Positions 20,996 to 27,568 of a DNA stretch of 46,304 bases are shown here, piece after piece (the stretch's first letter is position 1; every line of letters begins with the position of its first letter). The position numbers and the translations under genes are program-made. Location of the stretch: positions 1 to 46,304 of the forward strand of contig VXQZ01000055.1 in the NCBI GenBank assembly GCA_009838735.1, written 5' to 3'. The notes beneath the pieces are model-generated. The model was not told where the DNA came from. It worked only from the letters and a program-made list of their open reading frames with translations, and searched no databases. Origin of the DNA: Chloroflexota bacterium. Lineage in GTDB: Bacteria; Chloroflexota; Dehalococcoidia; Bin125.

Positions 20996-21832
20996 CTACG
21001 CGATCAGCTTCGCCAGGCGATCCAGCTCCGGCACGACCTCGTCCGCCCCTGCGTGGGGCAGACCAAAGACCACGCGGTCAACGCCGAGTCGCTCGTACTC
21101 GGGCAGCGCGTCCTCGATCGCCGGGAAAACGTTGATTGAAATCGAATCAAAGTCGCGTCCGGCCAGTTCGGCGCGCGACTTGATGTCCTGCATTGCGCGC
21201 TCAACGAAGCCAGGCGCGGGAATGTTCGGCAGCCAGCCGTCGCACCAGTCGACCACCCGCTGGCGCGCCCACTTGCTGCCGGCGCCCATCAGGATCGGTG
21301 GGTGCGGGTTCTGCACCGGCTTCGGGATCACGTGGGTGCGCGGGATGTCGACGAACTCGGAGTGATACTCGGCGATCTCCTCCGTCCACATCACCTTCAT
21401 CGCCTCGATCCGCTGCTGGGTCACCTTCCAGCGATCCTTGAAGCTGACCCCGAGCGGCTCCATTTCCTCGGCCAGCCAGCCCGCGCCGATGCCGAACTCG
21501 AAGCGACCGCCCGAAATGAAGTCGAGCGAGGCGACCTGCTTGGCCAGCGCGATCGGCTCGTGCTCCGTGACCAGGCAGATGCTGGTGCCGAGCCGAATCT
21601 CCGAGGTCGCGCCGGCCGCTGCGCCCAACGCCACGAAGGGGTCATGGAGGCGGTAGTACTGCTCGGGAAGCGAGCCATCCTCCGAGCGAGGGAACTGAGT
21701 CTCACGGTCGGCGGGCATGTGTACGTGCTCCGGCACCCAGAACGACTCAAAGCCTCGCTCTTCCGCCGCCGCCGCCAACGCCCCCGGATCCATTGCCATA
21801 TCGGTCGCAAAGATCATCACGCCGTACTTCAT
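20996..21832 (-). CDS. LLM-class (luciferase-like) flavin/F420 oxidoreductase
   Basis: The 278-residue protein is an (alpha/beta)8 barrel of the bacterial luciferase-like superfamily. Its signatures are AAAAEERGFESFWVPEHVH (about 20-38), IRLGTSICLVTEHEPIALAKQ, LDFISGGRFEFGIGAGW and HPPILMGAGSKWARQRV. It resembles the TIGR03619-type F420-dependent family. The reaction is an oxidoreduction or monooxygenation of an unknown substrate. The ATG at 21832 has AAAGGAA upstream, favoured over an ORF extension to 21862. It is divergent from the nucleoside hydrolase. Confidence 0.87.
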   Translation of the reverse strand: MKYGVMIFATDMAMDPGALAAAAEERGFESFWVPEHVHMPADRETQFPRSEDGSLPEQYYRLHDPFVALGAAAGATSEIRLGTSICLVTEHEPIALAKQVASLDFISGGRFEFGIGAGWLAEEMEPLGVSFKDRWKVTQQRIEAMKVMWTEEIAEYHSEFVDIPRTHVIPKPVQNPHPPILMGAGSKWARQRVVDWCDGWLPNIPAPGFVERAMQDIKSRAELAGRDFDSISINVFPAIEDALPEYERLGVDRVVFGLPHAGADEVVPELDRLAKLIA

Positions 21833-21906
21833 CGAGAGTTCCTTTCGAATGTGGCCGCTCAATCGACCACAGGTTACGACCTCAAGAGCACAACTAGGCT
21901 GCCAGC

Positions 21907-22839
21907 ATGCAACACCACACTCTCACTCCTCCAACTCCTCCGAGTCGAGTACCGATGGTGCTGGACACCGACACGGCCAACGAGATTGACGACCAGTTCG
22001 CGGTGGTTCATGCGCTGCTGTCGCAGGATCGCCTGCAACTGGAGGCGATCTATGCCACGTTGTTTCTGCGCCAGGGGGACTCGCCGGCTCAAGGGCTGAA
22101 CGATTCCGAAGCGGAGATTCACCGCCTGTTGGACCGCCTGGGAGTTGACGGCGGCGGACGTGTTCATCGCGGAGCGGATCGATTCCTCTCCGAGGACGTC
22201 AGCTCGGTCGCCAATGCGGCCTCGGACGATCTGATTCGACGAGCAATGGAGCCGAGGGACGGTCCGCTCTGGGTCGTGGCGATTGGGGCGCTGACCAACA
22301 TTGCCTCGGCGCTCAATGCGGCGCCGCAGATTGCCAGCCGGATTGTCATCGTCTGGCTGGGCGGACAGCCGCAACATCGCGATGACGCCAGGGAGTTCAA
22401 TCTCTATCAGGATCCCGTTGCCGCGCGCACCGTGTTCGCCAGCGGCGTTCCGCTGGTTCACATTCCCTGCTACGGCGCGGCGTCGCACCTGTTGACAAGC
22501 ACCGCGGAACTCGACGCTTACGTGCGGCCGCAGGGAGCGATTGGCGAGTACCTGAGCGACATCTTCCGCGATCACAGCGAGCAGTATCCGGGTCGATCCA
22601 AGGAGATCTGGGACCTGTCGGCAACCGGCTACGTGGTCAGCAACTCGTGGGTGCCCATTCGCAGTGTGGCGCGGCCGACTCTTTCGCAGCAGATGAAGTG
22701 GGTGGCGTCGCCGGACGACGCTCCGCTCGCCGCGTTCGCCGAGGCGCATTATGTCCAGCGCGATCCGATCTTCAACGATCTGTTTACGAAGCTGGCGGAG
22801 TTTGAGGCAGGAGAGCGAACGGCGGGTTTCGCCGAGTAA
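21907..22839 (+). CDS. Inosine/uridine-preferring nucleoside hydrolase
   Basis: The 310-residue protein has the N-terminal calcium and ribose motif DTDTANEIDDQFA (residues 20-32), the DxDxxxxxDD signature of IUNH enzymes. GPLWVVAIGALTNIASAL and VWLGGQPQ follow, and NLYQDPVAARTVF carries the conserved middle motif. These enzymes cleave N-ribosidic bonds of nucleosides for salvage. A conserved-position Asp near the C-terminus appears in KEIWDLSATGYV. The start lacks a strong ribosome site; an in-frame ATG at 21955 just before the motif is an alternative. Confidence 0.87.
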   Translation: MQHHTLTPPTPPSRVPMVLDTDTANEIDDQFAVVHALLSQDRLQLEAIYATLFLRQGDSPAQGLNDSEAEIHRLLDRLGVDGGGRVHRGADRFLSEDVSSVANAASDDLIRRAMEPRDGPLWVVAIGALTNIASALNAAPQIASRIVIVWLGGQPQHRDDAREFNLYQDPVAARTVFASGVPLVHIPCYGAASHLLTSTAELDAYVRPQGAIGEYLSDIFRDHSEQYPGRSKEIWDLSATGYVVSNSWVPIRSVARPTLSQQMKWVASPDDAPLAAFAEAHYVQRDPIFNDLFTKLAEFEAGERTAGFAE

Positions 22840-22844
22840 CGGCT

Positions 22845-23903
22845 TCAGAGCGACACTGTCACAGGTCGGGTCATGCCGCCGAAGGTCGGCATCCAGCAGG
22901 AGTGTTTGCCCGGTCCGCCGGCGACGATGATGTGAATCTCGTCCGGTTTGTCCGTGATCGGCAGCCACTCATCCGAGCTGTGCGTCGGCAGGATGCCTCC
23001 GGCCATGCGGATGTTGACTGACTCGAGGAATTCCTCGCTCAGTTTGCTGGCTGGGTAGCGGGCGTTCTCCCAGAGGTACTCCTGCACGGCCTCGCGGGTC
23101 CAGCCTTCCGATGCCACAGTCTCGGCATGCTCGGGACCGAACGCGAGTACCGGCTCGCCTTTGCCCAGGATGTTGTTGGAGCCCGCCTGACCCATGGCTC
23201 CGGCGACGGTCTGCAGAATGCCGGCGGCGGTGTTGCTGCCGTGATCCTGGATGTTGTGCGGACCCTCGCAGGCCCAGGTGGTGACGCAGCTGTCCTCGGC
23301 ATTGAACCCGCGCGTGGTCTGGAACGGCGGCCAGGGCGAGGCATCCTCGCGCTCGGTGGCGCAGAAGGCAAACTTGGCCGGTGTGCCCTGAGTGGCGCGA
23401 TCACCACGACCGGGCGTCGCCCCGGCGACATTCAGTTGAACCAGCCGGACGGCGCGCCCAATTGTCGCGTTGGAAGGAAAAGTCGGTCCGAAGCATCCGG
23501 AGCCACCGTGGATTCCGGCAGATCGGGCCGCTGGGCCTGAGGCAAGGATGAAGACCGCGCAGGGATGCGTGGTCGCGTTGATCCCGTCGAGGTTGAAGGG
23601 TGGCTGTGAAATCGCCTCGACGGCGGCAAGGATGATCGGGAACTGTTGAGGGCGGCAGCCGGCCATGACCGCGTTGATCGCGACCGCCTGAACCGTCGCC
23701 TCGCCTTGACGCGGCGAGAGCACGCCAAGCACTTCGAGCGGATCGCGGCCTGAAGATTCCAGCATGGCGTCGACGCGATCGGGCGTCGGCGGAATCAGCG
23801 GCAGGCCGTCCGACCAGCCGCGGCGCTGGCACTCCTGGGAGAAATCGAAGGGATCGGACGGCAAGGTGAAGCGGTCGGCCGCCCTGCCGCTCGCTGCGCT
23901 CAC
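22845..23903 (-). CDS. Cysteine-rich partner protein of the UGSC selenoprotein
   Basis: The 352-residue protein has no function I can name. Eight cysteines are spread along it: C25, C83, C115, C137 (GGSGCFGPTFP), C181, C206, C212 (SCVTTWACEGPHNIQDHGSN) and C336 (GKHSCWMPTFGG). Gly-rich loops around several of them could hold a redox or metal site. There is no signal peptide. Its GTG start overlaps the UGSC stop (GTGA), so it is translated together with the selenoprotein. From this coupling I infer that it is the partner or downstream acceptor; it could also carry the actual catalytic pocket. Confidence 0.8.
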   Translation of the reverse strand: MSAASGRAADRFTLPSDPFDFSQECQRRGWSDGLPLIPPTPDRVDAMLESSGRDPLEVLGVLSPRQGEATVQAVAINAVMAGCRPQQFPIILAAVEAISQPPFNLDGINATTHPCAVFILASGPAARSAGIHGGSGCFGPTFPSNATIGRAVRLVQLNVAGATPGRGDRATQGTPAKFAFCATEREDASPWPPFQTTRGFNAEDSCVTTWACEGPHNIQDHGSNTAAGILQTVAGAMGQAGSNNILGKGEPVLAFGPEHAETVASEGWTREAVQEYLWENARYPASKLSEEFLESVNIRMAGGILPTHSSDEWLPITDKPDEIHIIVAGGPGKHSCWMPTFGGMTRPVTVSL

Positions 23904-24442
23904 GAGTTCGCCTGGCCGAGCAGCGCCGCTTCGAGACGGTCGAGGACGCCGTCGTCGACATGGGCGCGGACGCGCTCGGGGCGCAATCCACCCAGTGGGT
24001 GAGGAACGATCAGGCGGTCGAGTTCAGGCAGACCGCGTTGCTCGGCTTCGAGCTGCAGCAGGTCGGTGAAGGCGGTAGTTCCGACTGTGACGGTCGGGAT
24101 ACCCATGTCTTCGAACAGGACCGAGGCGTGGACACTCCACGTCGTGCAGCTGCCTCAATCGCAGCTCCCTATCAAGAGGAAGTCGGCGCCGTTGCGCAGC
24201 GCGTCGATGGTGGAGTCCGTTGGAGGCCCGCCAACCGGTTTGCTGCCGACCACGAGGTCGCCGAGATCGTGGCGCTCGCCCAGCCGCTCGACCATGGTTT
24301 CCATCAGCAGCCGCGCATTGGCCTTGCGGTTCTCAAGGATGCCTGGTCGGAGACCGTCGAGGGAGGTCGGGCGCGGTGCGGCGGTCGCCTCGCGGACGGC
24401 GACGTGGGCGAGGGGGCTGAGGACTTCGATGGTGTCGGGCAT
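23900..24442 (-). CDS. UGSC-family selenoprotein (in-frame UGA read as selenocysteine)
   Basis: Read through one TGA at 24157-24155, the frame gives 180 residues with selenocysteine 96 in GSCDUGSCTTWSVHAS. The segments KPVGGPPTDSTIDALRNGAD before it and DMGIPTVTVGTTAFTDL after it belong together and match the UGSC family, in which U (or Cys) and Cys three residues later form a redox pair. The ATG at 24442 has a strong GGAGGTG site, and no ribosome site supports a second gene starting at 24106. A SECIS-like hairpin follows the TGA. The reaction is unknown; a thiol/selenol redox role is inferred. Sequencing error is the main alternative but would need to create both signals. Confidence 0.9.
24127..24157 (-). 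promoter_or_regulatory. Bacterial SECIS-like element for UGA recoding
   Basis: On the coding (minus) strand TGA (24157-24155) is followed by 13 bases, then CGTGGA (24141-24136), loop GTG (24135-24133) and TCCACG (24132-24127). The stem is a perfect 6 bp. The loop begins 19 bases after the TGA and starts with G. This fits the bacterial SECIS pattern bound by SelB: apical loop 16-37 bases downstream, with G in its first two positions. Confidence 0.8.
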
Positions 24443-24508
24443 ATTGTCACCTCCGCAAGGGCGAATCCGTCCTGGATTGCTTCCCTAGCCTAGTGAGTCC
24501 CGGCGGCA

Positions 24509-26116
24509 TCAACCCTCCCCGGAGCCCACGACGATGATCTCGGCGTACCCGAGGCGCTGTGGAAGTGGGTGGTAGGCGTCGTCGATGCATCGGGTCGTGA
24601 CCTCGACGCGGACACGGCCCGGAGCGGTCGGTGCACCGTACAAGTAAATGACTCTCGTCTCTCGGCCAGAAGCCTCTTGAACTCGCAGACCGTTCCAGTG
24701 TGTTCCGGCACCGACCGTGAATTTTCCGTTGTATCCATACGAGGTAGTGGTCAGAGTGCCGTCGGTGTACCTGGCGGTCACATAGCATTTCGGTTCCCGT
24801 AGAAGCTCGACGGGAGAACCTGACTGATAGGTCTGGCCGACGACGAGTTCGAATGTGCCGAGCGACTGTTCGGGCGGAATCTGTTGGTAGTCCGACGGCA
24901 ACTGTGGAGCCGGCTGGCTGAGCAGATCAAGCACCATACTCGTACGTTCGGAGACAGGCTCGACATCAAGCGGGTCTCCGACAGGGACTTGGTACTGTCC
25001 GGCAAGCTCGCGAGCGAGCTCGGCATCGAACTCCGGGGCGTATCGGTCCACAAGCATCAGGAAGGTTGCGGCAGCGCGCTCGCCGTGGCCCGGCGCGGGA
25101 TGAACCAACAGTTGCGCCAACCCCAATAGGATTCGAGTCGTTCCCGGAAACTCAATCCACATTGATCGGCCGGGATTGTGCGGCCGGTCGGTGCTATAGC
25201 GCGGCATCAGAAGCGTGACAGGTGGAGCGCGACCCGCGAAGAGATCGTCGACAACGGCGTCGATCCATGACTGCGCAGCCGCCCCGTATGCCTGATAGTC
25301 GGGCAGAAGGTCGCTTCCCGCATCCTCTAGCTCGCGCACTTCGGGATGGAGCCACACAAGCTCGTAATGCACCGTGTCGTACCAGTCGTGGAAGCGATGC
25401 CGTTCGACCTCGGAACCGGTTCCGGCCAAGGGATAGTAGAAGCTACGACCGTAGCCGCCGGTGGGCGCGCGAATGGTAACGGCATGGCGAAGCCAAAGGC
25501 CGGGATAACGGCCCACCAGAGTGACTTCGCCCCATCGATTCGGATATCCATCGCCAAGGGATTTCGGCGTGTAACCGATGTGGAGCCAATTGTCCTCGCC
25601 GTCAATCACGAATGAGCGAGGCGGAAAATAGATGGTGAAGTCAGCACGAATGACTGATTGATCATCCTCAACGATCCGGCCGGCGCCGACGCAGGGGTAC
25701 CCGTTGGCAATGATTGAGGTTTGTCCGTCACGTACCTCAATCTCACGGTCGCACGTGCCCTTGACGACGATCCGATCCTCATACGCTGTGATGTAGAACT
25801 CTGAATCGCGGATGGGCCAGACGATTGAGCTTGATCCTGCGTCGAGGAGCAGCCCACTATCGAGCAGTTCTCCCCTCAGCGTCCGAATCTCGCCTCGCTC
25901 AGCGGCCGCGCTGAGGCAGTCAGTGAAGTCTTCTGGCGACGAACTGCCAGGGATGCCTCCGAGGTAGCCGAGCCAACGCCAACTCTCGCGGTCGAAACAC
26001 CAAGCGGGAACCGGCGATTGACCTGCTCCGGACGTAGATGTCAACGCGAGACCGGCAGATAAGCCGCACAGTGCGATGATCAACAGGAACAAGCGGCGGA
26101 CAGCTGCACGATTCAT
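24509..26116 (-). CDS. Secreted protein of unknown function
   Basis: The 535-residue protein has a clear signal peptide: RRLFLLIIALCGLSAGLALTS, with likely cleavage near residue 30. No domain is recognised in the rest. It is rich in Trp, Tyr and Gly, with sections such as GRSFYYPLAGTG and HDWYDTVHYELVWLHPEVRE. Around residues 280-370 it vaguely recalls a zinc-peptidase-like scaffold (DDLFAGRAPPVTLLMPRY... FLMLVDRY), but no HExxH motif is present. The C-terminal 100 residues look beta-rich. It lies between the SelW-like gene and the UGSC gene on the same strand, and is the only exported member of that run. Confidence 0.75.
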   Translation of the reverse strand: MNRAAVRRLFLLIIALCGLSAGLALTSTSGAGQSPVPAWCFDRESWRWLGYLGGIPGSSSPEDFTDCLSAAAERGEIRTLRGELLDSGLLLDAGSSSIVWPIRDSEFYITAYEDRIVVKGTCDREIEVRDGQTSIIANGYPCVGAGRIVEDDQSVIRADFTIYFPPRSFVIDGEDNWLHIGYTPKSLGDGYPNRWGEVTLVGRYPGLWLRHAVTIRAPTGGYGRSFYYPLAGTGSEVERHRFHDWYDTVHYELVWLHPEVRELEDAGSDLLPDYQAYGAAAQSWIDAVVDDLFAGRAPPVTLLMPRYSTDRPHNPGRSMWIEFPGTTRILLGLAQLLVHPAPGHGERAAATFLMLVDRYAPEFDAELARELAGQYQVPVGDPLDVEPVSERTSMVLDLLSQPAPQLPSDYQQIPPEQSLGTFELVVGQTYQSGSPVELLREPKCYVTARYTDGTLTTTSYGYNGKFTVGAGTHWNGLRVQEASGRETRVIYLYGAPTAPGRVRVEVTTRCIDDAYHPLPQRLGYAEIIVVGSGEG

Positions 26117-26459: not shown

Positions 26460-27458
26460 TTATCTGCCGAGGTACTGCTCGAGGCGGCGGCCGACGTCCA
26501 TGGTGTCGCCGGCGGGCAAGGGGATCATCTGCAGGTCGGCGCCGGCGTCGGAGCGGGCCTGGAGCTGCTCGGGGACCGATTCGATCGGGCCGATGACCTG
26601 GATCTCGCGGACCATGCTCTCGGAGAAGGCCATTAGTGCGCCTTCGGAATCGCGGTCGGCCCAGGCCGCTCGGGAGTCCTTGATCTCGGACTCGAAGCCG
26701 GAACGCGAGAGCATCTGCCAGTAGAAGGAACCCATGCGGTTGGTGTAGTGGAAGAGCGGCTGGCGGGCGTTGCGCCAGACCTGCTCGTCGTCGCCTTCGC
26801 CCGTGACGAAGACATTGGTGAAGGGTGCGACGGTGACCGAGTCCTCGGGCCGGTTGGCGTCGCGCGATGCGCCGGCGAGTTGCCGCTTGAGCGGCTCGAA
26901 GCCGCGTTTGGGCCAATGGATCGGGTAGATGCCGTCGGCGATCTCGCCGGTCTGCTGGATCGAACGCGGCGTGATCGCGGCGATCCAGACGGGCATGTCT
27001 TCGCGCACTGGCTCGTAGCCGAGCAAGCGGAATCCGCGCTGGAGGGTGTAGATGTCGCCCTCGTATTGCAGGCGCTGACCGCTGAGCAGCATCTTGATGA
27101 TCTCGGTGTACTCGCGGATCCGTCGCAGGGGGCGGTCGAAGTCGACGCCGTGGAATCCTTCGATGACGAGGTTGCCGGAGGATCCGAGGCCGCAGACCAT
27201 GCGACCGCCAGAGATTGTCTCCAACGTGGCGAACTCCTGGGCAATCGCCGCCGGGGAGCGGGAGAAGGTATTGAGGATGCCCGTGCCGATCTGCATCTTC
27301 TCGGTGTTGGCGGCGATCACGGTCAGCCAGGGCAGCACCGAGTGTCCCCAGGCCTCACCGGTTGAGATCATCTCGTAGCCGAGGTCTTCGGCGATCTTGA
27401 CTTTCTCAAGTGTGTCTCGCCAGTTGGCGTCGAATCCGGCCAGAATGCCGAGTCTCAT
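26460..27458 (-). CDS. LLM-class flavin/F420-dependent oxidoreductase
   Basis: The 332-residue protein is a second luciferase-like barrel with family blocks KIAEDLGYEMISTGEAWGHS, QIGTGILNTFSRSPAAIAQEF, LETISGGRMVCGLGSSG and DMPVWIAAITPRSIQQTGE. It resembles F420-dependent tetrahydromethanopterin-reductase-like members, and the substrate is unknown. The ATG at 27458 has AAGGAGA 6 bases upstream, which is better than the frame start at 27491. It differs clearly from the LLM protein at 20996-21832, so the two are not recent duplicates. It lies in the VOC-RidA-LLM-Rdx-UGSC run. Confidence 0.87.
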   Translation of the reverse strand: MRLGILAGFDANWRDTLEKVKIAEDLGYEMISTGEAWGHSVLPWLTVIAANTEKMQIGTGILNTFSRSPAAIAQEFATLETISGGRMVCGLGSSGNLVIEGFHGVDFDRPLRRIREYTEIIKMLLSGQRLQYEGDIYTLQRGFRLLGYEPVREDMPVWIAAITPRSIQQTGEIADGIYPIHWPKRGFEPLKRQLAGASRDANRPEDSVTVAPFTNVFVTGEGDDEQVWRNARQPLFHYTNRMGSFYWQMLSRSGFESEIKDSRAAWADRDSEGALMAFSESMVREIQVIGPIESVPEQLQARSDAGADLQMIPLPAGDTMDVGRRLEQYLGR

Positions 27459-27481
27459 GGTCTTCTCCTTGTGATGAGGGA

Positions 27482-27568
27482 GGGCCCTCACCGTAACCCT
27501 CTCCCAGAGGGAGAGGGGACTGACCCTCGCCCCGGCTCGCTCTTCCTTGGGGAGCGGGAGGGGTGAGG
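27482..27568. repeat. Dispersed palindromic repeats, copies D and E (head to head)
   Basis: Copy D (27482-27519, minus orientation) has GGGCCCTCACC then CCTCTCCCAGAGGGAGAGG. Copy E (27523-27568, plus orientation, more diverged) ends GGGAGGGGTGAGGGG. The two stand in opposite orientation and fill the gap between RidA and the LLM gene. Confidence 0.65.

Follow-up and report, generated by a model that had tools for sequence, protein, structure and literature searches.

The UGSC family of selenoproteins has been known since 2008 and is uncharacterised: a 'UGSC-containing protein' was described in the Global Ocean Sampling study (PMC2398784), and the family is treated as long described in PMC13188914 as well. 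Both papers call the family probably thioredoxin-like, and the first reports its fusion to a conserved domain, 'Unknown_1', in a limited number of organisms (PMC2398784). Selenoproteins with the UGSC motif have also been reported together with a tRNA-Sec(CUA) in the Geodermatophilaceae (PMC5330540 and its reference 56). GrdB, the substrate-binding subunit in clostridial reductases, is homologous to PrdB (PMC13188914), and three papers that name both UGSC and GrdB (PMC13188914 among them) list them as separate families. The UGSC gene considered here lies in a stretch of 46,304 nucleotides (herein referred to as the window; contig VXQZ01000055.1 of assembly GCA_009838735.1) from a Chloroflexota bacterium of the Dehalococcoidia; the family itself being known, what the analysis adds is the gene that accompanies it and the probable link of UGSC to the GrdB/PrdB superfamily.

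An earlier note, made from the letters of the window alone, had read one frame interrupted by a single TGA (24157-24155), with the UGSC signature running across the TGA, a ribosome site at the upstream start, and Sec96 and Cys99 forming a UxxC pair. Translation of 24442..23900 on the minus strand agrees on every point: the frame holds this one TGA, read-through gives LIGSCD-U-GSCTTWSVH around it (with CD-U-GSCTTW as the signature), both residues fall at the positions named, and GGAGG precedes the ATG (table 1). The read-through product matches the Pfam UGSC family PF24696 with 140.9 bits (gathering cut-off 25) over residues 6-164, and hence across the TGA, and its U96-G97-S98-C99 corresponds to the [UC]-G-x-C motif, of which columns 96, 97 and 99 are invariant in 46 sequences. 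With the known family (PF24696, NF041046, PMC2398784) it shares the U-G-S-C motif, the length, the domain limits and the occurrence of Cys homologues; it differs in belonging to a subfamily that falls under the NCBIfam cut-off, the equivalog model NF041046 giving 105 bits against a curated threshold of 125. Two of the other paralogues in the genome score below this threshold as well (118 and 105 bits), and the third (L033) reaches 153. Judged from its sequence, the protein is a member of the UGSC family by Pfam, motif and SECIS, though not by the stricter NCBIfam cut-off, and because of that shortfall automatic annotation may miss the subfamily and could well overlook the read-through product.

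Table 1. Coordinates of the features at and around the UGSC locus, in positions of the window
Feature	Position	Strand	Remarks
LLM-class (luciferase-like) oxidoreductase gene	20996-21862	-	flanks the UGSC-partner pair
Nucleoside hydrolase gene	21907-22839	+	near the UGSC-partner pair
Partner gene	22845..23903	-	352 aa, GTG start; overlaps the UGSC stop by 4 nt (GTGA)
UGSC-family selenoprotein gene	23900..24442	-	180 codons including Sec96; read-through product matches PF24696 at E 5.9e-41
Putative bacterial SECIS hairpin core	24127..24141	-	CGUGGA 24141-24136, loop GUG 24135-24133, UCCACG 24132-24127
Cys99 codon (UxxC partner residue)	24146..24148	-	invariant in 46 aligned homologues
In-frame TGA, predicted Sec96 codon	24155..24157	-	conserved in 14 congeneric genomes and 4 paralogues; TGA, TGC, TGT or TAG in wider homologues
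Shine-Dalgarno GGAGG	24450..24454	-	7 nt 5' of the ATG; read from the sequence; variable in orthologues
Gene for a 535-aa protein, no Pfam family	24509-26116	-	directly upstream of the UGSC gene; 42% relative in the same place in a Dehalococcoidia MAG (L102), the nearest named relative of the source genome
LLM-class (luciferase-like) oxidoreductase gene	26460-27491	-	flanks the UGSC-partner pair

The source genome (3.15 Mb, 97% complete) was searched for selA, selB, selC and selD, and all four are present: SelA (524 bits), SelB (330 bits), SelD (353 bits, its own gene containing one TGA) and a tRNA-Sec whose anticodon is UCA (68 bits). Besides the window's UGSC gene there are three others, on four contigs in all, and in each of the four genes the matching region holds a single TGA. 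Also encoded in the genome are five short GrdB-like proteins (L219 to L222; G000 contigs C19, C17, C10 twice and C23), whose genes each carry an in-frame TGA within the motif U-P-x-C (TPVUPFCTR, for example); counted with the UGSC genes and SelD, they bring the genome to at least 10 selenoprotein genes. A strong SelA is found in 39 of 42 UGSC-bearing genomes, which is weak evidence of association because SelA occurs in about 80% of all 400 Chloroflexota genomes sampled. One genome that is 98% complete (G457) has a TGA-bearing UGSC gene and no SelA match, and may reflect either a gap in the assembly or an unusual way of making selenocysteine.

Orthologues from 14 congeneric genomes (the window's and 13 further) were compared on either side of the TGA, which is kept in all 14. 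Mean dN/dS is 0.047 before the TGA and 0.055 after it; these near-equal values indicate that purifying selection is as strong past the TGA as before it. Codons for invariant amino acids vary synonymously at 67 of 70 positions before the TGA and, starting with codon +12, at 48 of 52, and dS is near 1 outside the hairpin, whereas codons +3 to +10, which encode the hairpin, show no synonymous change in any of the 14 species. Such freezing of silent sites is the footprint expected for an RNA element within a coding sequence.

The hairpin itself, described in the earlier note as perfect and as carrying a GUG loop 19 bases past the TGA, is found as described, its stem beginning 13 nt past the TGA. 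Folding supports it in part: it is the minimum free energy structure of the 21-nt piece (-7.6 kcal/mol, z -1.7), whereas the 40-nt context prefers another fold (z -0.2), and an Rfam scan for known SECIS families gave no match, so that thermodynamics alone would not prove the element. It is proven instead by comparison of sequences, namely by the silent-site conservation just described and by compensatory stems across phyla. A set of 103 distinct Sec sequences was drawn from the UGSC genes of Dehalococcoidia genomes and of 80 loci in other phyla, and in this set 95% of the cells of the six-pair core are paired, compared with a maximum of 88% in 1000 shuffles of the 3' letters among sequences and with 18-52% when the stem partners are slid. 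The stem types, in which both sides have changed, include CGUGGA/UCCACG, CGUGCA/UGCACG, CGAGCA/UGCUCG, CGCGGA/UCCGCG and CGGCCA/UGGCCG. A GU opens the loop in 96 of the 103; the serine codon from which it comes is AGT in 87 and AGC in none, and the GU is lost in four Cys homologues, from Sphingomonas, Binatia, Natrialba and Natronomonas.

Wider homologues carry U exactly at the position of Sec96, or C (for example, in haloarchaea and Sphingomonas), and a tree of 82 sequences requires two Sec/Cys changes. A homologue from Blastococcus (L118:6390-6944) has TAG at this position followed by the same hairpin, and the best tRNA-Sec match there (66.7 bits, labelled tRNA-Pyl by ARAGORN) has the anticodon CUA, in agreement with what PMC5330540 reports for the Geodermatophilaceae, the bacterial family of Blastococcus. 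The UAG-decoding selenoproteins of this family are the same as the window's in family, SECIS and Sec site, and differ in using UAG and tRNA-Sec(CUA) where the window has UGA; with TAG and a CUA tRNA-Sec in Blastococcus and TGA elsewhere, the position is one of selenocysteine under two codons. None of the refuting results named in the earlier note turned up, selB and selC being present and homologues continuing past the Sec position. From this comparative evidence the TGA at 24157-24155 is almost certainly decoded as selenocysteine, and all of the checks that were run favour the earlier note's interpretation of the gene as a UGSC-family selenoprotein.

That note did not take in the context of the gene, which has a near-obligate downstream partner and whose product, a probable relative of the Sec domain of GrdB/PrdB, does not stand alone as a redox enzyme. 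The terminal TGA stop of the UGSC gene overlaps the partner gene, and the TCGTGA junction between the two is kept in 13 of the 14 congeneric orthologues. Each of the UGSC genes in the genome adjoins a partner paralogue, on either side, and when loci were sought with the partner alone as query, a UGSC gene lay beside it in 74 of 80 genome loci, four of the remaining six being at or near contig ends (two partner-bearing loci, L164 and L166, have no UGSC gene within flanks of ~7 kb). About 35 distinct frames are UGSC-partner fusions that run through one Sec and a linker of 12-45 residues with no stop. We considered one paralogue in the source genome (contig C55) as a further fusion and rejected it, as its UGSC and partner sequences lie in different frames and the 526-aa frame is not a fusion. 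Like the 'Unknown_1' domain of PMC2398784, the partner is a conserved domain fused to UGSC, and the two are probably the same; unlike 'Unknown_1' as described there, from a limited number of organisms, the partner is near-universal beside UGSC. This linkage of genes makes it very probable that the partner belongs to the same enzyme as the UGSC protein.

The partner protein matches no Pfam or NCBIfam family, and searches of solved structures by sequence (single and profile) with both UGSC and partner returned nothing significant. Ten of its residues are invariant in 50 sequences (D32, G33, P39, A81, G82, C83, G123, G149, R150 and G199). A comparison with the pyruvoyl subunit GrdE gave 0.1%, and the reading of the partner as GrdE was rejected.

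Aligned by hhalign, the profile of 46 UGSC sequences matches a GrdB-type profile at 94.9% (E 5e-8) over 70 columns, in which the Sec residues of the two coincide and the later HPLG segment is aligned, and the match still stands at 80% when both active-site columns are masked; the figure is 93% for a larger set, 83% for full-length GrdB by itself and 75% for the short GrdB-like proteins by themselves, and nine unrelated neighbour families used as controls reach at most 6.5% against the UGSC profile. The Pfam GrdB profile (PF07355) does not recognise the UGSC product, for which a Pfam scan gives PF24696 only. UGSC resembles GrdB (selenoprotein B of glycine reductase, PF07355) and PrdB (of D-proline reductase, TIGR04483) in having a UxxC Sec motif at the same strand-helix position followed by a conserved (H/F)PLG segment, and differs from them in being a single domain and in living in many aerobic and non-clostridial lineages. 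We consider it highly likely, from these profile comparisons, that UGSC is related to the Sec domain of GrdB/PrdB. In contrast to glycine reductase, the partner of UGSC is unrelated in sequence to GrdE, so that the analogy with that enzyme covers one subunit only.

We hypothesize that the gene encodes a true UGSC selenoprotein that serves as redox subunit in a two-component, GrdB/PrdB-like enzyme with a reductive function, completed by the product of 22845-23903; this is the best explanation that we can offer and a reasonably likely one. SelB and tRNA-Sec(UCA) would read the UGA as Sec96 under the guidance of the SECIS hairpin within the coding sequence, and the product of the overlapping downstream gene would supply the second subunit. 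By homology with GrdB/PrdB, Sec96 would lie at the N-terminus of a helix that follows a parallel beta strand, beside Cys99, with which it would cycle between a selenolate and a selenenylsulfide, and substrate binding probably falls to the partner, whose Cys83 is invariant. As its likeliest reaction, the enzyme would reduce a small organic acid (or the CoA ester of one), or cleave a bond in it reductively, as part of a catabolic pathway; we infer the complex, its chemistry and its substrate, and put forward the reductive catabolic role with some hesitation.

Of the genes that recur nearby in the wider set (the first families named by Pfam, the others judged from their sequences), TctC receptors come first (19 loci), followed by short-chain dehydrogenases (16), SBP_bac_5 receptors (14), class III CoA transferases (13), acyl-CoA dehydrogenases (12) and enoyl-CoA hydratases (11); these neighbours hint at the uptake and breakdown of small organic acids. 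The enrichment is dominated by betaproteobacteria, in which TctC genes are abundant anyway, and the organic-acid context is for this reason a hint and no more. Somewhat more tentatively still, UGSC and its partner may constitute a class of selenoenzymes, two-component or fused, that has so far gone unrecognised within the GrdB/PrdB superfamily. Found in many bacterial phyla and, as Cys forms, in haloarchaea, this class would process small organic acids reductively outside clostridial amino-acid fermentation. With its partner named and its domain tied to GrdB/PrdB, what was an orphan selenoprotein becomes a two-subunit enzyme concrete enough for expression and assay, for which natural fusions offer ready-made single-chain versions.

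The UxxC motif, and the thioredoxin-like character ascribed to the family in the papers cited above, could instead indicate a general thiol-disulfide oxidoreductase whose neighbour is merely co-transcribed. The model predicted for UGSC (pLDDT 95) folds into a regular (beta-alpha)5 sandwich in which Sec96 follows strand 88-94 and precedes helix 97-112. This arrangement argues against the thioredoxin-like fold assumed in the literature, without excluding it; among the fold matches listed for this model, thioredoxins are absent, as is GrdB (which does not exclude the GrdB kinship), and those present are generic CheY/Rossmann-like folds (Z about 9) that are uninformative on function. A generic role is further at odds with the in-frame fusions to one and the same partner and with adjacency in both gene orders, and the number of copies, at least 20 in some Dehalococcoidia genomes, suggests substrate specialisation, so that we regard a thiol-disulfide oxidoreductase as unlikely.

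Slightly less likely again is that catalysis falls to the partner, which might be a lyase or hydrolase, with Sec acting as a nucleophile or metal ligand and not as a redox centre. The confident model of the partner (pLDDT 92.7) finds no clear counterpart among solved structures and weakly resembles class I fumarase subunits and cyclic-amide hydrolases, and its invariant Asp32, Cys83 and Arg150, like the catabolic surroundings, would fit such an activity. This resemblance, however, amounts to a Foldseek TM of ~0.25, and the partner as a class I fumarase alpha subunit finds no sequence support (0.1%); it also lacks the three conserved cysteines that a cluster would need, and the UxxC pair with its invariant Cys99 favours redox chemistry. 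That the TGA is an ordinary stop or a sequencing error, leaving a 95-aa fragment of a pseudogene, has nothing beyond the standard meaning of TGA in its favour and is of negligible probability given its presence in every congeneric orthologue, the full Sec machinery, the compensatory SECIS, the equal purifying selection on either side and the frozen hairpin.

Among the findings that weigh against the proposed enzyme are the partner genes of L164 and L166 that stand without UGSC, and one homologue (L138:5029-5490) that has neither U nor C at the active site (TGEGGNPTAK). The latter still adjoins two partner genes and is possibly a non-catalytic subunit. Some Dehalococcoidia genomes (G045 and G046; for example, loci L085 and L091) have at least 22 UGSC matches, often in tandem with partner genes.
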